Shown here one piece after another: positions 16,008-32,243 of a stretch of 44,308 nt of DNA. A model generated the notes under the pieces. That model saw only the letters and a program-made list of their open reading frames with translations, did no database searches and was not told the DNA's origin. Source of the stretch: a virus; the IMG/VR virus record IMGVR_UViG_3300008113_000153, positions 1 through 44,308 of that record; one strand, written 5' to 3'. Both the position numbers and the translations under genes were made by a program. Each line of letters opens with the position of its first letter. Positions within the stretch are counted from its first letter, which is position 1.

Positions 16008-19000
16008 ATGCCAAATTGGAAAAAAGTCATAGTATCGGGCTCTAATGCTGCCCTAAATTCTTTAAATGTAACAACTAGCATTACAGGCTCTACAGCCCTT
16101 TTTACTTCAATCCCTTCAGGAACAACAGAAACCAATATTGTTGTATTAACAGCAGATGGTGATTTAAGATATAGAAATAATTTAAGTTTACAAGGTGCAC
16201 AAGGTACAACTGGAACCCAAGGAACTACAGGAACTACTGGTGCTCAAGGTACTACTGGTACACAAGGTACAGTAGGAACACAAGGCGCAACTGGAGCTCA
16301 AGGAACCACAGGTGCACAAGGTATAACTGGAACACAAGGTACTACTGGAGCACAAGGAGTAACAGGAACCCAAGGTACAACTGGAACAACTGGTGCACAA
16401 GGTACAACTGGTGCTACTGGTTCACAAGGTACAACTGGTGCTACTGGTTCACAAGGTGCTACTGGTGCTACTGGTTCACAAGGAGCTACTGGAGCACAAG
16501 GATCAACAGGTACACAAGGAGCTGTTGGTACACAAGGAGTTACTGGAACACAAGGTGCTACTGGTTCACAAGGCGCAACTGGAGTACAAGGAACAACAGG
16601 TGCTACTGGAGCTCAAGGTACTACTGGTGCAACAGGATCTCAAGGTGCAACCGGAGCTACTGGTTCACAAGGAGCTACTGGAGCACAAGGAACTACTGGT
16701 ACTCAAGGTGCTGTAGGTTCACAAGGAACTACTGGAGCACAAGGAACTACTGGAGCACAAGGAACAGTTGGTACACAAGGAACAACCGGAAACACTGGAG
16801 CACAAGGAACAACAGGAGCAACAGGATCTCAAGGTGCAACCGGAGCTACTGGTTCTCAAGGTACAACTGGAGCTCAAGGTACAACAGGAACTCAAGGAAC
16901 AGTCGGTACACAAGGTACAACTGGAGCACAAGGAGCTACTGGGTCACAAGGAACCGTCGGTACACAAGGTACAACTGGTGCTACTGGTTCACAAGGAACT
17001 ACCGGAGCACAAGGTATACAAGGTGGTACTGGAGCAACCGGCTCACAAGGTACAACTGGAGCCCAAGGTACCGTTGGTACTACTGGTGCACAAGGAACTA
17101 CTGGAACACAGGGTACACAAGGCGTTACTGGTGCACAAGGAGGAACAGGAGCACAAGGAACTACTGGAACACAGGGTGCAGTTGGTACACAAGGTACAAC
17201 TGGAGCACAAGGAATTACAGGAACACAAGGTACAACTGGTGCACAAGGTACAACAGGAACACAAGGAAATGATGGTTCATTTGGTGGTGCTACGTTTGAT
17301 TACACCTACGATACTTCCACAGCAGCATCAGATCCTGGTACTGGTAAAGTACGATTAAATAACGCAACTGAAAACGTTGCTACTGCGATGTATATTGATT
17401 CTACTACGGATCAAGGTGCAAATATAGATTCATTTTTAAATACAATTAATGCTGTATCATCAGCTATAAAAGGATATGTTAGAATTGCAAATAGAACAGA
17501 TGCAACTCAATTCCTATTATTCCAGATATCAGCATTAACTAATAATACAGGTTGGTGGACATTAACTGTCACTAACCAAGCATTTTCTGCTGCATCACCA
17601 TTTACAAATGCTGAAGACATTATAGTATCTTTTGTAACTACTGGTGATAAAGGTGCACAAGGAACAACAGGTACACAAGGCGTTACTGGTGCACAAGGAA
17701 CAACTGGAACACAAGGTACAGTTGGTACAACAGGTGCTCAAGGTACTACTGGAACACAAGGTACAGTTGGAGCTACCGGATCACAAGGTGCTACTGGAGC
17801 ACAAGGTACAACAGGAACACAAGGAGTTGTTGGTACACAAGGTACAACCGGTGCACAAGGCGCAACAGGTGCACAAGGAACTACTGGTACAACAGGTGCA
17901 CAGGGTGCTACTGGAGCTCAAGGAACTGTAGGTACTACTGGTACACAAGGAACAACTGGAGCTACTGGTTCGCAAGGAGCTACTGGAGCACAAGGAACAA
18001 CTGGGAATACGGGTGCTCAAGGAACTACAGGTACACAAGGAACTGTAGGTGCAACAGGATCTCAAGGTGCAACCGGAACAACAGGTGCACAAGGAGCAAC
18101 AGGTACACAAGGAGCTGTTGGTACCCAAGGTACTACTGGAGCAACAGGAGGAACTGGAGCACAAGGTGCTACTGGAGCACAAGGTACTACTGGTAACACT
18201 GGAGCACAAGGTACAACTGGAACACAAGGAACTGTAGGTGCAACAGGATCTCAAGGTACTACTGGAACTACTGGAGCCCAAGGAACAACAGGTACACAAG
18301 GAGCTGTTGGTGCTACTGGAGGAACAGGTACTCAAGGTGCTACTGGATCTCAAGGAGTAACAGGAATACAAGGAACTACTGGAAATACTGGTGCACAAGG
18401 AACAACTGGAGCACAAGGAACTGTAGGTGCTACTGGTGCACAAGGAACTACTGGAACTACTGGAGCCCAAGGAGCAACAGGTACACAAGGAGCTGTAGGT
18501 ACTCAAGGTGCTACTGGAACGCAGGGTGCAGTTGGTACACAAGGTACTACTGGTGCACAAGGAACTACTGGAACACAAGGCATCCAGGGTATTACAGGTG
18601 CTACTTCTTATGCACTACCCGAAACCGCAGGATCAGCTTCTTGGATCAAACTTGGTACTTGGTCTACATCGCAACAAGGACAATCACTTTACATTCAAAT
18701 TGTAGCTAAAAGTGGTTATAATGCTGATACTACTCAAAACCAAGTTACTGAATTATATTTTAAAACATCTAATGGTTCTAGTAATCAAGGTGGTTTTTAT
18801 GGTGATGGATTAGCCTTTAGAAATACATCATTAGGAACTAACAGTGCGTCTCCTTCTACAATCAGAGTTGTCCAGGTTAGTACTACTTCATATGAAGTCT
18901 ATGGAAACTTCAGTACATATACTGGTTATGGTTCATTATATGCAGTTTTAAACTCACCAAGTACAACTTGGACAAATAGCTCAACAACAGTATCTACTCC

Positions 19001-20237
19001 AACCGGTACTTACATAGATATATCTCCTAGTACCGCAATAGGTCCTCAAGGTATAACTGGAGCACAAGGTACTACTGGAACACAAGGTGCTGTAGGTACT
19101 ACTGGAAATACTGGTGCACAAGGAGCAACAGGTGCACAAGGTACTGTTGGTACAACTGGTACACAAGGAGCAACAGGTGCACAAGGAACTGCTGGTACTA
19201 ATGGTACTCAAGGAACTACTGGAGCACAAGGTATAACTGGAGCACAAGGGGTACAAGGTAGACAAGGTATTACTGGTACAAATGGTACTCAAGGTGCTAC
19301 TGGAGCACAAGGAACAGTAGGTACAACAGGAACTCAAGGAGCAACTGGAGCACAAGGAACAACTGGAGCAACAGGAGGAACAGGTACCCAAGGAGCAACA
19401 GGTGCACAAGGAACAACTGGAGCAACAGGAGCAACAGGTGCACAAGGAACTACTGGAGCAACTGGATCTACCGGAGCACAAGGAACAACTGGAGCCCAAG
19501 GTACAACAGGAACTGGTACCCAAGGAACAACAGGTGCACAAGGTGCAACTGGAGCGGCATCAATTACAAATAATACAGATAATTATGTTCTTACAGCAAC
19601 AGGTGGCTCATCAATTAATGGTGAAGCTAATTTAACATTTGATGGTAGCACTCTTGCATTAGTTGGTAATACTGAATTAAATGGAAATTCAAATTACCTT
19701 AGATGGATGAGTAGTGGAACAACTTTTTATGCTGGTGGTGTTGATATCAGTGCAATAAGTGGTGGCCCAGTCGTTAGACAAGGTGTAAGTTCAGTTAATA
19801 GATACCCAGATTTACAAAACTGGACTGATCAAGTTTATTTTAATGGGTTAATAATTGGCCAAGTTGATGTTTCTGCAGCAGGTGCTGTATCCCCAGGCCA
19901 ACTTTTACATTTAACTACAGGTAATACATGGGAAGCTGCAGATGCAGATACCCAATCTGCAACTAAGTTATTAGGCATATGTGTTGAAAGCGCTGGTGCT
20001 GAAGGTATAACTACTGTTTTATTAAACGGTATATATTCAACAGTATACCATGACCAATTAGGTACAGCAACCTCAGGTACTCCTTTATATGTTTCTACAA
20101 CAAATACTGGATATGTAACTGAAACTGCTCCAACACAAACCGGTGATTTTGTTAGATTAATTGGACATAATATTTTCGACGCATCTGATGCAGTAATTGT
20201 AAGATTTGACCCTGATAATACTTGGATAGCATTATAA
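16008..20237 (+). CDS. Giant collagen-like tail fibre, 1409 aa
   Basis: A 1409-residue fibre. Residues 1-12 carry the WKKVIVSGS module shared with the 14080 gene. Three Gly-X-Y blocks follow at about 63-423, 546-864 and 1012-1184, made mostly of [12 protein letters not shown] and GTV triplets, almost without proline or charge. They are separated by two globular beta domains (about 424-545 and 866-1011). The C-terminal 225 residues contain the [13 protein letters not shown] block and a beta tip (about 1285-1409) with DNTWIAL at the end. Such proteins form trimeric triple-helical shafts in phage fibres. Thr-rich triplets could be O-glycosylated, as known for Bacillus BclA; that is only inference here. 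Confidence 0.85.
16194..17277 (+). repeat. Collagen-like Gly-X-Y block 1
   Basis: About 120 in-frame Gly-X-Y triplets, based on [12 protein letters not shown] units. The DNA repeats at 9 and 18 bases with synonymous variation, so replication slippage and assembly errors are possible here. Confidence 0.9.
17643..18600 (+). repeat. Collagen-like Gly-X-Y block 2
   Basis: About 105 in-frame Gly-X-Y triplets in the same style, with recurring [10 protein letters not shown] and GTVGATG sub-units. It ends in [10 protein letters not shown] before the second globular domain. Confidence 0.9.
19041..19558 (+). repeat. Collagen-like Gly-X-Y block 3
   Basis: About 57 triplets. Includes [10 protein letters not shown] units and one positively charged triplet region ([10 protein letters not shown]), rare in the other blocks. 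One GTG step near 19514 breaks the strict triplet register. Confidence 0.88.
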
Positions 20238-25488: not shown

Positions 25489-27522
25489 ATGGCAGAAACA
25501 ATTGTCTCACCTGGTGTATTAGCAATAGAGAACGACCAATCATTTGTAACTCAACAACCTGTACAAGCAGGTGCTGCTATCATTGGCCCAACCGTTAAAG
25601 GTAAAGTAGGAATTCCTACTCTAGTAACTTCATATAGTGATTATTTAAATAAGTTTGGTGCTACTTTTTTAAGTGGAAGTACTACTTATACTTATTTTAC
25701 TTCTATTGCTGCTTATAACTATTTTAATAGTGGTGGAACTTCACTTTTAGTAACTCGTGTTGTAACTGGATCATTTACTTCTGCTACTTCATCTTTAATT
25801 CCTTCATCAACAGCAGCTACTTCAGCATCTGCTACTCTTGATTTAACTAATGCAGTAACAGTTGCTTATACAGCTTCATTTAATGGTATAGATGTAATCC
25901 TTTCAGGATCAACAACTCAAGAAGTATTTAATAATGCTACATCTTCAGGTGTAATTCCATCCAACCCAACTAACTTTTACACAAATACAACTATTAATAG
26001 TAGTGCTTCATTTAATGCTCCTACTATGACTATAACTTCCACTAACCCAAATGGTTTAGCTGGAAATTCATCTTACTACATTTCAGGAAGTACAATTGTG
26101 TATTATACTGGTGGTACAAACACTGAAGCATTTATCCTAGAGACCATATCTGAAGGAGAAATCATGAATAGTACTGGCCCAGTAGGTCAAAACAATACCC
26201 TTCTTTCAGGATCAAGTGAAAACTATAGATGGCAGATTACTTCTCCTAATGTAAATGATGGAACATTTTATCTTTTAATTCGTCAAGGAAATGATACTGT
26301 TATTTCTCCGTCTGTTTTAGAATCATGGGGTCCATTATCTTTAGATACGAACTCACCAAACTATATCGAAAAAGTAATAGGTAATCAAGTTGAAACAATT
26401 CAATTTGATCCTTCAACAGGTGAATATTATGTTGAATTGGTTGGAAATTATGCCAATGTTTCAAAATATGTTAGAGTAAAACAAGTAAATACTCCAACAC
26501 CAAATTACTTTGACAATAATGGAATCCCTAAACCAGAATTTACAGGTTCAATTCCATATTTTTCAAGTGGTTCTTTTGGTGATGCTACAGGAAAATTATT
26601 CTATGGAGGTGACAACAAATATTATGAAACTATCACAACTACCAATAATATCCAAGGTATCCCAGCTAGTGCATATACTGAATCTATTTTATTATTAGCT
26701 AATAAAGATGCATATAACTATAATTTATTAGTTGCTCCTGGGTTAATATCTAGTATGGGTGGTGTAGCTGCTTCTGCTATTACTTCTATGATTGACACTG
26801 CTCAAAATAGAGGTGATATGATGGTAGTATTTGATTCTTCATTATATAACTCTCAAATCGGTAGTGTATTATCTAATGTTGCCGGGTATGATACTTCATA
26901 TGCTGCTACTTACTGGCCTTGGGTTAAAACAATTGATCCAAATACAGCTAATCAAGTTTGGGTACCTGCGTCTGCTGTAGTTCCTGGAGTATATGCTTTT
27001 AATGATAATGTTGCTGCTCCTTGGTTTGCTCCTGCAGGTATTAATAGAGGAGTATTAACTACTACTATTCAAGCAGAACGTGTATTAACTCAAAATAATA
27101 GAGATACATTATATCAAGCAAATATTAATCCTATTGCTACTTATCCTAATACTGGTATAGTAGTATTTGGACAAAAGACATTACAAAAGAAAAAAAGTTC
27201 TTTAGACCGTATTAACGTACGTCGTTTATTGATTGAACTTAAAAGCTATATTTCTCAAGTTGCTGATACATTTGTATTTGAACAAAATGATGCTGTTACT
27301 CGTAGTAATTTTTCATCTATTATCAGTTCATATTTAGCATCTGTTCAACAGCAACAAGGTTTAACCGCGTTTAGAGTGGTAATGGATGAATCTAACAACC
27401 CACCTCAAGTAGTAGATAATAATCAAATGGTAGGACAAATTTATTTACAACCTACTAGAACAGCTGAATTTATCATACTTGATTTCAATATATTACCTAC
27501 TGGTGCAACATTTCCTGTTTAA
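25489..27522 (+). CDS. gp18: Tail sheath protein gp18-like, long paralogue
   Basis: A 677-residue contractile tail sheath protein. The N-terminus has the sheath pattern SPGVLAIENDQSFVTQQPVQ and a GPTVKG block. The C-terminal 200 residues are highly characteristic: APWFAPAGINRGVLTTTIQA, INVRRLLIELKSYISQVADT, FRVVMDESNNPPQVVDNNQM and QPTRTAEFIILDF. Compared with the next gene it carries about 115 extra residues (roughly 105-215), Ser/Thr/Asn-rich and beta-like, in a part of sheath proteins that generally faces outward. The two sheath genes are closely similar at both ends and so are paralogues. It has its own late motif. Confidence 0.88.
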   Translation: MAETIVSPGVLAIENDQSFVTQQPVQAGAAIIGPTVKGKVGIPTLVTSYSDYLNKFGATFLSGSTTYTYFTSIAAYNYFNSGGTSLLVTRVVTGSFTSATSSLIPSSTAATSASATLDLTNAVTVAYTASFNGIDVILSGSTTQEVFNNATSSGVIPSNPTNFYTNTTINSSASFNAPTMTITSTNPNGLAGNSSYYISGSTIVYYTGGTNTEAFILETISEGEIMNSTGPVGQNNTLLSGSSENYRWQITSPNVNDGTFYLLIRQGNDTVISPSVLESWGPLSLDTNSPNYIEKVIGNQVETIQFDPSTGEYYVELVGNYANVSKYVRVKQVNTPTPNYFDNNGIPKPEFTGSIPYFSSGSFGDATGKLFYGGDNKYYETITTTNNIQGIPASAYTESILLLANKDAYNYNLLVAPGLISSMGGVAASAITSMIDTAQNRGDMMVVFDSSLYNSQIGSVLSNVAGYDTSYAATYWPWVKTIDPNTANQVWVPASAVVPGVYAFNDNVAAPWFAPAGINRGVLTTTIQAERVLTQNNRDTLYQANINPIATYPNTGIVVFGQKTLQKKKSSLDRINVRRLLIELKSYISQVADTFVFEQNDAVTRSNFSSIISSYLASVQQQQGLTAFRVVMDESNNPPQVVDNNQMVGQIYLQPTRTAEFIILDFNILPTGATFPV

Positions 27523-27546
27523 TAGCACATTTTAAGGAAATTTTAG

Positions 27547-27556
27547 ATATTTATAA
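27547..27556 (+). promoter_or_regulatory. Candidate late promoter motif ATATTTATAA
   Basis: Exact motif 11 bases before the second sheath gene, showing that the two sheath copies have separate promoters. Confidence 0.62.
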
Positions 27557-27567
27557 TAAAAAATACG

Positions 27568-29280
27568 ATGGCAAATTTCACAACTTCTCCTGGAGTAGCA
27601 ATTAGCGAAATAGACAACACTTTCTTAACTGGCCAACCAGTACAAGCAGGTGCTGCTATTATAGGCCCTACAGTTAAAGGCCCATATGAAAAACCAGTAC
27701 TTGTAACAACTTATTCAGACTTTGTAACATTGTTTGGAGATACTTTTATTAGTGGTGGTAACTCTTATTCTTATTTAACTTCAATTGCTGCTTACAATTA
27801 TTTTAATTATGGAGGAACTTCATTATTAGTTGCTCGTGTAGCAAGTGGTTCTTATTCGTCTGCAGTTAGCACCCCAATTCCTAATATTTTTACCTCTTCA
27901 TCTTTTTCTTTAGAAACGATTTCTGAAGGAGTTCTTATGAATAACTCAGGTTCAAATACACTTGGAGCTTCAGGATCATTAAACTCAGGATCAGTTGCTA
28001 ATATTCGTTGGGAAATTACAAATGCTAACACTGGTTCAGGTACATTTAACGTATTAATTAGACGTGGTAATGATATTGAGTCTAATAAAGTAGTATTAGA
28101 GGCATGGAATAATTTAACATTAGATCCAAATTCAAACCGCTATATTTCTAGAGTAATTGGTGATCAAAAACTTCAATATAATTCTACTACACAACAAATG
28201 GAATTATCTGGAAGCTTTCCAAATAATTCAAAATATGTTCGTGTAAAATCAGTTAATTATCCTACACCAAATTATTTTGATGCAAATGGTGTTGCAATAG
28301 TAGCCTATACAGGATCTATCCCAGTAAATGGTAGTGGTTCAGCTGGTGGGTCATTTAGAAATGCTGGAGGAGATGTAAGTGGTTCAATTAAATTATATGA
28401 TGAAATTGGTGTTAATACACAAGGATTAATAGGTGATGATTATAATAATATGATTACACTTTTAGGTAATCCTGAAGAATATCAATTTAACGTATTATTT
28501 ACTCCTGGTCTATTAAACGATACTCATACAGAACAAGTTACAAATATTATCTCAAATACAATTGCAAGAGGTGATAGTATGTATGTGATGGATTTAGGAA
28601 TATACGGTACTAAACTTCCAGAAGCAGTAACACAAGCTCAAATGCGTGATACTTCATATGCTGCTACTTATTGGCCTTGGGTTCGCATCATTGACCCAGG
28701 AACAGGAAAACATGTTTGGGCTCCAGCTTCAACCGTAATTCCAGGTGTATATGCATTTAATGATAAAGTAGCTGCTCCTTGGTTTGCACCAGCAGGTATT
28801 AACCGCGGTGGATTAAGCACAGTTCTTCAAGCTGAATATAAACTTACACAAGGTAATCGCGACACATTATACAGCAATAATATTAACCCAATTGCAACAC
28901 TCCCTCAACAAGGTGTAGTAGTATATGGTCAGAAAACACTACAAAAAGCTCAATCTGCTCTTGATCGTGTAAACGTACGTCGTTTAATGATTGAATTGAA
29001 AGCTTATATCAAACAAATTGCAGATACAATTGTATTTGAACAAAATACTATTTCTACAAGAAATTCATTCTTATCAAGAGTTAACCCATACCTAGAAGCA
29101 ATTCAACAAAAACAAGGATTGTATGCCTTTAGAGTTGTAATGGATGATTCAAATAATGGACCAGCAGTAATTGATCAAAATCAATTAGTAGGACAAATTT
29201 ATATTCAACCTACCCGCACAGCTGAATTCATTTCGTTAGACTTTATTTTACAACCAACAGGTGCTCAATTCCCTGTATAA
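27568..29280 (+). CDS. gp18: Tail sheath protein gp18-like, short paralogue
   Basis: A 570-residue sheath protein, parallel in order and motif to the previous gene (SPGVAISEIDNTFLTGQPVQ; GPTVKGPYEKPVLVTTYSDF; APWFAPAGINRGGLSTVLQA; NVRRLMIELKAYIKQIADTI; QPTRTAEFISLDF). It lacks the 115-residue insertion, so it is nearer the minimal sheath. In contractile tails the sheath polymerises around the tube and shortens to drive it through the envelope. It is followed by the tail tube gene as in T4 (18-19). Whether both paralogues enter one tail is not visible from sequence. Confidence 0.9.
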   Translation: MANFTTSPGVAISEIDNTFLTGQPVQAGAAIIGPTVKGPYEKPVLVTTYSDFVTLFGDTFISGGNSYSYLTSIAAYNYFNYGGTSLLVARVASGSYSSAVSTPIPNIFTSSSFSLETISEGVLMNNSGSNTLGASGSLNSGSVANIRWEITNANTGSGTFNVLIRRGNDIESNKVVLEAWNNLTLDPNSNRYISRVIGDQKLQYNSTTQQMELSGSFPNNSKYVRVKSVNYPTPNYFDANGVAIVAYTGSIPVNGSGSAGGSFRNAGGDVSGSIKLYDEIGVNTQGLIGDDYNNMITLLGNPEEYQFNVLFTPGLLNDTHTEQVTNIISNTIARGDSMYVMDLGIYGTKLPEAVTQAQMRDTSYAATYWPWVRIIDPGTGKHVWAPASTVIPGVYAFNDKVAAPWFAPAGINRGGLSTVLQAEYKLTQGNRDTLYSNNINPIATLPQQGVVVYGQKTLQKAQSALDRVNVRRLMIELKAYIKQIADTIVFEQNTISTRNSFLSRVNPYLEAIQQKQGLYAFRVVMDDSNNGPAVIDQNQLVGQIYIQPTRTAEFISLDFILQPTGAQFPV

Positions 29281-29326: not shown

Positions 29327-29815
29327 ATGCCAATTCTAAATCCAAACGAAATATTTTTCACAGCGTTTGAACCTAAACAATCCAACCGTTTTATCCTTTA
29401 TATGGATGGTGTCCCTGCATACTTAGTAAAAGGAGTAGGTGCTGTATCTTTAACACAAACTGCAGTTGCTCTTAACCATATCAACATCCAACGATATGTA
29501 AAAGGAAAAACTATTTGGAACACGATTCAATTTACATTATATGAATCAATTACTCCAAGTGGTGCACAAGCAGTAATGGAATGGGTACGTTTAGGTCACG
29601 AATCAGTAACAGGCCGTGACGGTTACTCAGATTTCTATAAAAAAGATATCCGATTCAACGTATTAGGTCCTGTAGGTGATATCGTTTCTGAATGGGTAAT
29701 TAAAGGAGCAGTTATTACAGAAGCTAACTTCGGTGATTATAGCTGGGATGATGATGGTCAAGCAGTAAATATCCAAGTAACTGTACAACCTGACTACTGT
29801 ATCTTGAACTACTAA
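29327..29815 (+). CDS. gp19: Tail tube protein gp19-like
   Basis: A 162-residue protein, the same size as T4 gp19 (163). It begins MPILNPNEIFFTAFEPKQSN followed by RFILYMDGVP, a common start of T4-type tube proteins, and ends in strand-rich AVNIQVTVQPDYCILNY. gp19 forms hexameric rings that stack into the tube delivering DNA. It directly follows the sheath genes and is closed by an intrinsic terminator at 29841-29868, so it is a single-gene unit with its own motif. Confidence 0.87.
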   Translation: MPILNPNEIFFTAFEPKQSNRFILYMDGVPAYLVKGVGAVSLTQTAVALNHINIQRYVKGKTIWNTIQFTLYESITPSGAQAVMEWVRLGHESVTGRDGYSDFYKKDIRFNVLGPVGDIVSEWVIKGAVITEANFGDYSWDDDGQAVNIQVTVQPDYCILNY

Positions 29816-29840
29816 GAACAAAACAACAAAGTATATAAAA

Positions 29841-29868
29841 GCTCCAAAGAAATTTGGGGCTTTTCTTT
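29841..29868 (+). terminator. Intrinsic terminator after tail tube
   Basis: An 8-bp stem GCTCCAAA/TTTGGGGC with one G-T pair (29841-29848 with 29853-29860), a GAAA loop, and a T-rich tail. Confidence 0.85.
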
Positions 29869-29884
29869 TTCTTTTATATATTGT
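29853..29884 (+). promoter_or_regulatory. Host-type promoter TTTG-N20-TATATTGT before T9SS-type gene
   Basis: TTTG at 29853-29856, then exactly 20 bases, then TATATTGT at 29877-29884, which fits 6 of 8 positions of the Bacteroidota -7 element TAnnTTTG. The -33 box lies in the 3' arm of the tail-tube terminator. The ATG is 4 bases after the -7 box, so the message would be leaderless or nearly so. Confidence 0.5.
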
Positions 29885-29888
29885 ACTT

Positions 29889-31853
29889 ATGAAAAAATTA
29901 ATTGCACTTTTATTATTAGCTAATATAGGATATAGCCAATATTGTCCATCTTTAGGACCTGATCAAATATTACCTTGTGGTATAGGATCAACTACTTTAA
30001 CCGCAAATTTAAGTCAATGTGGTACAGGAACAAACCCTAATCAAACAACAAATTATAGTGCAAGCCCAATTGCATATACAAATCAAACCAATACAGGAAC
30101 TCAGTTATTCATGACTGATGATTCTCAGCAAGGCCCATTTAATATTGGATTTACATTTTGCTTTTTTGGACAAACATATACACAATTTTATGTAGGTTCA
30201 AATGGGTGGATTTCATTTTCCCCAGGCCAACCAACAACATTTACTACTCAAACAATTCCTACAGGTAATTTTTTAGTGCCTAAAAATTGCATTATGGGTC
30301 CTTGGCAAGATTGGCATCCTGGTGTTGGAGGACAAATTAGATATCAAACTAGTGGGGTTGCACCTTGTAGAAAGTTAACAGTAAGTTGGACAAATATGCC
30401 AATGTTTAGTTGTACAGGAAACCAAGGTACATTTCATATTATAATTTATGAATCATCTAACTACATCGAAAACTATATTCAAAATAAACCAGCTTGTTTG
30501 CAATGGCAAGGAGGCACAGCAACTCAAGGAATTCATAATGCTGCAGGTACTATAGGAATTGCTGTGCCTGGTAGAAATTCAACTGCTTGGACTGCAACAA
30601 ACGACGCATATAGATGGACACCAACAGGTCCTGTAGTTGTACCTACTTTAACATGGTATCAAGTAGGTAATCCAAATCCAATTGGAACAGGTCCTACTAT
30701 TAATGTAACTCCAAATGGACCAACTCAATATACTTGTCATTTAACATACCCAATTTGTAATGCTGGTTGGTCTGCTTGTAATGGAGGAGCTAGTTTAGGT
30801 CCTGATACTGTATTAGTTGTACCTGGTCCTCCAATTCCGTCAACTGGACCTATTAGTGGATTAGATACTATATGTTATTTAAGTTCATATGAAATGTATA
30901 GTGTTCCCTCTCAACCTACTTACAATTACCTTTGGAGTAGTGTTGCTCCTATCACTTCAGGACAAGGAACTAATATCATTACAGTAGATTTTAGCTCATT
31001 TCCTGGAGGATTTATTCCTGGAGCTATTCAAGTAACTCCTGAAGAAAATGGATGTACTGGATTGCCTGTAACTATTGATTTATTTATTTTAAATGTTTTA
31101 CCTACAATTGATCCTATAGGACCATTTTGTGAATACGACGAATTTGTTACTTTAAACGTAAATCCTGTTGGAGGAATACTTAGTGGTGTAGGTATTACAG
31201 GTAATGATTTTTACCCTTCAAACGCAATAGGAACTAATGTTATTAATTATGAATATACTTTAAGTGGATGTACATTTGATACAACAACAACAGTAATAGT
31301 TAACCCTCAACCAACTCTTGATTCAATTTCTCCATATAATCCATTTTACCAAGTTTGTGAAGGTGATTCTATTGTAACTCTATTTACTGCTTTATCAAAT
31401 TTACCTGGATATAACGAATGGACATTCATGGGAACAACATATCAACAAGATGATATTTCTATTTCATTTGAAACCCCAGGAATGTTTCCTTTATCAGTAA
31501 TTCATTATTCAAATGGGTGTGTTTCACCTGTTCAAGAAACAATAATTACAGTAGCACGTTGTCCTGAATTATTATTTTATGTTCCTAATTCATTTACACC
31601 TGATGGAAATGAACATAATAATGTTTTTCAACCTGTATTTACAAATGGATTTGATCCATATGATTTTTATTTAGTAATATTTAATCGTTGGGGAGAATTA
31701 ATATATGAATCATATAATTCTGCAGAATATTGGGATGGAACATATAATAATATACCATGTCCTGTAGGATCATATACATATAAAATCCAATTTGGTTTTA
31801 AAGAAACGGATAATGATCAAGTAATAATAGGAAATATCAATCTTGTTCGATAG
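29889..31853 (+). CDS. Secreted T9SS-type protein with gliding-motility C-terminal (type B) sorting domain
   Basis: A 654-residue exported protein. Residues 1-16 (MKKLIALLLLANIGYS) are a clear Sec signal peptide. About residues 20-260 are a beta domain with FGQTYTQFYVGSNGWISFSP and several cysteines, followed by Ig/PKD-like repeats (about 260-555). The last 95 residues match the gliding-motility-associated C-terminal domain: FYVPNSFTPDGNEHNNVFQP, then FNRWGELIYES, WDGTYNN and PVGSYTYKIQF. In Bacteroidota this domain directs export through T9SS and surface attachment. The gene sits alone between the tube terminator and the baseplate genes with a host-like promoter, like an acquired 'moron'. 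An infected-cell surface role is inferred. Confidence 0.85.
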   Translation: MKKLIALLLLANIGYSQYCPSLGPDQILPCGIGSTTLTANLSQCGTGTNPNQTTNYSASPIAYTNQTNTGTQLFMTDDSQQGPFNIGFTFCFFGQTYTQFYVGSNGWISFSPGQPTTFTTQTIPTGNFLVPKNCIMGPWQDWHPGVGGQIRYQTSGVAPCRKLTVSWTNMPMFSCTGNQGTFHIIIYESSNYIENYIQNKPACLQWQGGTATQGIHNAAGTIGIAVPGRNSTAWTATNDAYRWTPTGPVVVPTLTWYQVGNPNPIGTGPTINVTPNGPTQYTCHLTYPICNAGWSACNGGASLGPDTVLVVPGPPIPSTGPISGLDTICYLSSYEMYSVPSQPTYNYLWSSVAPITSGQGTNIITVDFSSFPGGFIPGAIQVTPEENGCTGLPVTIDLFILNVLPTIDPIGPFCEYDEFVTLNVNPVGGILSGVGITGNDFYPSNAIGTNVINYEYTLSGCTFDTTTTVIVNPQPTLDSISPYNPFYQVCEGDSIVTLFTALSNLPGYNEWTFMGTTYQQDDISISFETPGMFPLSVIHYSNGCVSPVQETIITVARCPELLFYVPNSFTPDGNEHNNVFQPVFTNGFDPYDFYLVIFNRWGELIYESYNSAEYWDGTYNNIPCPVGSYTYKIQFGFKETDNDQVIIGNINLVR

Positions 31854-31871: not shown

Positions 31872-32243
31872 ATGAAACTAGATAGTTTACGTACGTTAGT
31901 TAAAGAGGAGCTTAGTAAGCGACTAAATGAGGAATACCAAGACAAATTCAAAATGGTAGGTATGCTCATTACCAACATTAAAAAACGCCCTCAAAAAGAA
32001 ATTTTCTCAGATATTCGTTCCATTCCAGGTGTTACAGTAGCATCTGTAAAAGAACCAATGGAATATAGTGAGCAAGATACAGAAAAATTTCAATCTATAA
32101 TGACCGTTAAAGTAGATGGTCATCCATGGATTGCATCTAGTGGATTCGACCGTTCAAAAATGGAAGATATCCGCAAAGCTATATTAAAAGTAGAAGGAGT
32201 ATTATCATTTAATGTGAATCCTGATAATATTTCTGCTCTTTAA
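31872..32243 (+). CDS. Hypothetical protein, 123 aa, ACT/ferredoxin-like pattern
   Basis: A 123-residue protein. The first 25 residues form a charged helix (LRTLVKEELSKRLNEEY). The remainder alternates strand and helix as in a beta-alpha-beta-beta-alpha-beta fold: KMVGMLITNIKK, EIFSDIRSIPGVTVASVKE, FQSIMTVKVDG, KMEDIRKAILKVEGVLSFNV. The two GV turns after the helices are typical of ACT/ferredoxin-like domains. It starts the baseplate group; the function is not known. Family recognition is by fold pattern only. Confidence 0.55.
   Translation: MKLDSLRTLVKEELSKRLNEEYQDKFKMVGMLITNIKKRPQKEIFSDIRSIPGVTVASVKEPMEYSEQDTEKFQSIMTVKVDGHPWIASSGFDRSKMEDIRKAILKVEGVLSFNVNPDNISAL

Follow-up and report, generated by a model that had tools for sequence, protein, structure and literature searches.

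A conserved phage-encoded T9SS type B cargo protein, host-derived and probably displayed on infected Bacteroidota cells

Results

Domain architecture of the cargo protein

The window analyzed here, a 44,308-base linear IMG/VR fragment, carries portal, capsid protease, major capsid, two sheath, tube, hub and tape-measure genes, a set that identifies its source as a contractile-tailed phage. The two sheath genes are tandem paralogues (25489-29280), and a gene at 16008-20237, with raised GC (0.44-0.47), encodes a collagen-like fibre of 1409 aa. Downstream of the tube gene, the window encodes a 654-aa protein, referred to below as the cargo protein. The features at the locus are as follows.

29327..29815, + strand: tail tube gene (PHROG tail tube), directly upstream of the cargo gene
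29837..29864, + strand: intrinsic-terminator-like hairpin between the tail tube gene and the cargo gene (12 pairs, -14.6 kcal/mol, T-rich tail)
29875..29883, + strand: TATATATTG immediately 5' of the cargo start codon, where neighbouring tail genes have ATATTTAT
29889..31853, + strand: CDS of the phage-encoded T9SS type B cargo protein, 654 aa (open reading frame with PF13585 and TIGR04131 matches)
29889..29936, + strand: Sec signal peptide, residues 1-16, predicted cleavage before Gln17 by the Bacteroidetes Q-rule (pattern and conservation; rule from PMC5837995)
29940..30830, + strand: N-terminal beta-rich domain (N-domain), residues 18-314 (conservation, weak Nidogen-like similarity, confident model)
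30834..31562, + strand: tandem Ig/PKD-like domains, with PF19408 PKD_6 at residues 318-390 (domain match, likeness to the GhpA Ig repeats)
31581..31844, + strand: T9SS type B C-terminal sorting domain (CTD), residues 565-652 (PF13585/TIGR04131)
31872..32243, + strand: conserved 123-aa gene without assigned function, immediately 3' of the cargo gene; it carries an ATATTTAT start motif of its own and precedes the baseplate hub gene

The type B sorting domain that the preliminary description had placed in the last 95 residues was confirmed by profile comparison: PF13585 (CHU_C) matches residues 565-640 at 45.2 bits (cut-off 27, E = 1e-11) and TIGR04131 matches residues 565-652 at 42.8 bits (cut-off 35, E = 4e-11), putting a type B domain above the curated cut-offs at the extreme C-terminus. 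The Sec signal peptide that it had proposed at the N-terminus also held. The leader, MKKLIALLLLANIGYS followed by Q, begins with a short basic stretch, continues with a leucine-rich core and ends in GYS just before the glutamine, and the rule applied (charged start, hydrophobic core, small-x-small-Gln; an assignment by pattern and conservation) was passed by the cargo protein only among the 36 window proteins tested. Glutamine at +1 is a trait of most Bacteroidetes signal peptidase I substrates (PMC5837995).

A full-length structure prediction was poor over the N-domain, which was modeled confidently (pLDDT 94) after a rerun that included bacterial relatives. A PDB search with this model returned no match at E ≤ 0.001; at the sequence level the domain shows weak Nidogen-like (NIDO) similarity and a few matches to uncharacterized viral proteins. 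The middle domains resemble, by both sequence profile and fold, the Ig repeats of the Aureispira grappling-hook protein GhpA (PDB 9fls and relatives), their best match, with the difference that GhpA is 5898 aa long and contains no match to the N-domain. The cargo protein matched none of the PADLOC defence families.

Conservation of the family and its sorting signals

A scan of viral contigs found relatives of the cargo protein encoded on at least 155 viral stretches, and an N-domain profile gave 193 viral matches. In INPHARED, tblastn matched only two huge phage genomes (LR745206.1 and LR756502.1); phages larger than 634 kb have predicted Bacteroidetes hosts (PMC7162821). All 81 phage homologues inspected (81/81) carry a signal peptide with Gln at +1, a constant residue although leader identity among them averages only ~42%. 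All full-length phage homologues inspected retain a type B C-terminus, and nearly every one of 59 distinct full-length copies has the type B motifs, whose equation with motifs A-E of PMC12618676 was judged from position. The preservation of both sorting signals in relatives indicates that they did not arise by chance.

Pairwise dN was lower than dS in both the CTD and the N-domain among phage copies (L026, whose dN is inflated by an indel, was left out of this reading). Mean column identity in the N-domain among phages is 83%, and in all five phage pairs compared (5/5) the N-domain is 77-95% identical, versus 56-77% for the major capsid protein. Between the window and L019 and L022-L025, dN in the CTD (residues 559-654) is 0.34, against about 0.05 in the rest of the protein; because the CTD is so much more divergent than the remainder, the sorting domain seems to have been exchanged between phages by recombination.

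Cellular origin of the cargo gene

Bacteroidota genomes also encode the N-domain, with identities reaching 66%. The signal peptide, the N-domain and the Ig-like repeats are common to most of the full-length bacterial relatives, and many of these also have the type B CTD; some loci are truncated at contig boundaries, and some distant ones have no type B end. The Bacteroidota cargos L082-L093 have the same layout, with N-domains 52-66% identical and, in L090 (Flavobacteriales UBA6165), a CTD 49% identical to that of the window protein; unlike it, they are chromosomal in bacteria and mostly longer (about 815-1430 aa). In an N-domain tree of 141 rows (quick method, midpoint root), all 62 phage rows group together as a single clade (SH-aLRT 99) within the bacterial diversity. 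Since the phage copies form a single clade nested among same-layout Bacteroidota T9SS cargos, the simplest reading is one ancient acquisition from hosts, followed by vertical or horizontal spread among phages.

Genomic location and transcriptional context

Among the best 80 of the 155 loci, 45 have the cargo gene between the tube gene and the 123-aa gene or hub, as in the window, and within the window's phage group it keeps the tube-hub position in all syntenic relatives. Across these 45 records, drawn from many metagenomes, protein identity to the window copy ranges from about 50 to 100%. The preliminary description had named a chimeric assembly joint with host DNA as a way in which its reading could fail. 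The closest non-phage relatives are indeed host T9SS cargos, as a chimera or host contamination would predict; the recurrence of the same junctions in 45 records of the best 80 of 155, over so wide a range of identity, shows a genuine phage arrangement and leaves such an artefact a negligible probability.

That the gene is inserted among tail genes, as the preliminary description had it, is correct for this phage group and does not generalize: at 31 of the best 80 of 155 loci no recognizable window tail gene lies near it, and the neighbours differ, including GroEL, a metallophosphoesterase, a peptidase and an ATP-dependent protease. Cargo and sheath genes lie 85 kb apart in G002 and are separated by about 140 kb in LR745206. 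In one distant relative, a phage-encoded GroEL-like chaperonin (L035:803-2431) lies several kb upstream of the cargo gene.

The position of the terminator-like hairpin between tube and cargo genes is conserved in syntenic phages while its stem sequence is replaced in some, L041 having an unrelated stem at the same place, and hairpins followed by T-runs precede the gene in several distant phages (judged by eye). The motif ATATTTAT lies upstream of the tube gene at 44/45 loci, of the 123-aa gene at 41/41 and of the sheath genes at 59/59, but of the cargo gene at only 8/55, these 8 being distant lineages; other distant lineages have a TATTTAT variant there, and TATATATTG in the window is possibly a variant of the same start motif. 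Given the upstream hairpin and the rarity of ATATTTAT before it, the cargo gene may be a separate transcription unit of the moron type, with a terminator and promoter of its own inside a foreign operon; the terminator-like hairpin is conserved, and the promoter is a putative one suggested by a motif. The TATTTAT-like sequence in distant relatives means that the timing of expression may not differ from that of the structural genes; a reading in which no lineage has the start motif before this gene does not hold, as TATTTAT precedes it in those relatives. Matches to the Bacteroidota sigma promoter (TTTG...TAnnTTTG) were no more frequent than expected by chance, and none was properly placed.

Within the window, ATATTTAT occurs 16 times on the + strand and once on the - strand. 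The strand-biased sequence ATATTTATAAYA, which contains the reverse complement of the T4 late box, lies at 841, 8276, 13764, 23709, 25465, 27547, 29297, 31858, 33312 and 35718, each time just 5' of a gene start, and is probably a phage promoter or translation signal.

These observations bear on whether the protein belongs to the tail or baseplate and merely has Ig-like domains that resemble a T9SS CTD. Ig-like domains are common in phage virions, and the tube-hub position in 45 records of the best 80 of 155, lasting in all syntenic relatives, could hint at a virion role and to that extent counts against display at the cell surface. Linkage to tail genes, however, is split across phages (45 linked versus 31 unlinked among the best 80 of 155), the protein matches no tail family in a PHROG search, and it nests among bacterial secreted proteins. 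Together with the Q-rule Sec signal peptide in all homologues inspected, the TIGR04131 score above cut-off and the terminator upstream, this makes a tail protein very unlikely. With a location that is not general and a terminator that sets it apart, the gene is not to be counted among the tail genes; on the strength of the export signal, the conserved terminator and the variable location, its product is probably not a tail protein.

Export and candidate functions

Secretion by a type B CTD depends on all five motifs and on cognate PorP/SprF shuttles present in approximately stoichiometric amounts (PMC12618676), and the PorP/SprF shuttle anchors type B cargo (PMC9143113). No PorP/SprF family member was found in any of the 26 phage records searched (0/26), a set of fragments plus two records over 630 kb, whereas each of 8 bacterial genomes that carry relatives, searched as a positive control, has 3-22 copies. 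A cognate shuttle gene next door, a usual but non-obligatory type B trait, was thus not encountered in the phage records. Orphan type B cargos that rely on a shuttle encoded elsewhere have been described (PMC12618676), and so the missing gene is no defining failure for the type B class. Like them, the phage protein would have to borrow a host shuttle. Since a dedicated cognate partner is the norm for type B cargo, export on a borrowed one could be inefficient.

The maintenance of both signals, the host-derived family and the failure to find a phage shuttle together argue strongly for export by the host T9SS, as the preliminary description had suggested; its wider interpretation is supported in part, with a role in blocking co-infection or in altering adhesion or gliding plausible for each. 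We consider it probable (about 0.68) that the protein is an adhesin-like, host-derived surface protein, exported through the host T9SS and displayed on the infected cell. Here we go beyond what is read directly at these loci, namely the sorting signals, their maintenance, the cellular origin, the layout and the lack of a PorP hit in the records searched, and we infer the export itself, anchoring at the surface and a benefit to the phage. An ancestor of large Bacteroidota phages would have acquired an adhesin-like cargo gene from a host. Made in the infected cell, the protein would cross the inner membrane by Sec and be cut before Gln17; its type B CTD would then take it through the host type IX translocon and across the outer membrane, where a PorP/SprF-family shuttle of the host, the phages apparently bringing none, would hold it on the cell surface. 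The conserved N-domain, extended on the Ig-like stalk domains, would act outside the infected cell. As the preferred outcome, the cargo protein would take the place of host adhesins on their shuttles and at the cell surface, altering the range of phages or surfaces bound by the cell.

Superinfection exclusion or receptor masking, in which the exported protein covers, binds or replaces a receptor adhesin and so blocks other phages, is possible, if on balance unlikely. Gliding and surface components are thought to be receptors for Flavobacterium phages (PMC7345892), the strong conservation of the N-domain suggests a fixed partner, and the same idea has been put forward for Cryophage type A cargos (PMC7468147). 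Such factors often diversify fast, however, whereas in the phage pairs examined the N-domain shows stronger conservation than the capsid protein.

If the surface-display reading is correct, a broad set of uncultivated large phages would rewrite the surface of infected Bacteroidota through host type IX secretion, with one conserved cargo protein retained over long evolution. This suggestion makes phage steering of the T9SS, of gliding and of surface adhesins during infection a testable question.

Relation to known systems and other phage T9SS cargos

SprB and other type B adhesins of Flavobacterium johnsoniae (PMC12618676, PMC9143113) share with the window protein a signal peptide, a repeat or Ig region and the type B CTD motifs; the phage protein is far smaller, has a different N-domain and lacks a linked porP/sprF gene. 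The Cryophage cargos (PMC7468147) are likewise phage-encoded, with a T9SS sorting domain and presumed use of the host machine, but they are type A and variable accessory enzymes of one phage, in contrast to one conserved type B protein in many large-phage lineages. The T9SS-domain proteins of crAss-BACON cluster 2 (PMC6949934) also have the sorting domain beside phage structural genes; they contain BACON domains and belong to a different protein family. No prior report of this type B phage family or of CTD-only phage proteins was found in the open-access papers searched, and both appear to be new, phage type A cargo having already been published.

A type B domain is present in 26/26 phage records searched, nearly all of which were selected as carriers of the type B cargo family, and a type A domain exceeds the cut-off in 8/26. 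In LR756502.1, L252:379-5388 codes for a protein of 1670 aa that resembles a gliding adhesin, combining 13 SprB repeats with a CHU_C type B domain.

Several phage records encode mini-proteins of 110-126 aa that are essentially a signal peptide and a type B CTD (L287:3001-3333, + strand; also L285, L288, L297 and L319), with further examples at L257:1012-1359 (- strand) and L258:838-1215 (+ strand); one is encoded on a 176-kb record that also carries a terminase. These are candidate T9SS competitors and would be simple natural probes for shuttle recognition. The corresponding idea for the window protein is that a flood of CTDs uses up scarce PorP/SprF shuttles or the translocon, so that gliding and the export of host adhesins stop. 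Shuttles are in limited supply and do not seem to be recycled (PMC12618676), the phages bring none, and the mini-proteins fit such a role; the conserved 300-aa N-domain and the Ig domains would, however, be superfluous, and the mini-proteins themselves could have a small passenger function, so that we regard competition as doubtful for the cargo protein. A broader and still speculative proposal, possible though on balance unlikely, is that phage T9SS type B 'hijackers', with an adhesin head or as nearly the CTD alone, seize PorP/SprF shuttles and remodel or shut down the cell surface; if true, they would represent a phage strategy directed at a host secretion system.

A conserved phage type A cargo with a cohesin-like domain was also observed (L259:3668-5569; L328:9001-10825, the latter in Flavobacterium phage immuto). 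In immuto, a cultured phage of Flavobacterium sp. LMO8, this cargo is divided between two genes, both of which encode a signal peptide.
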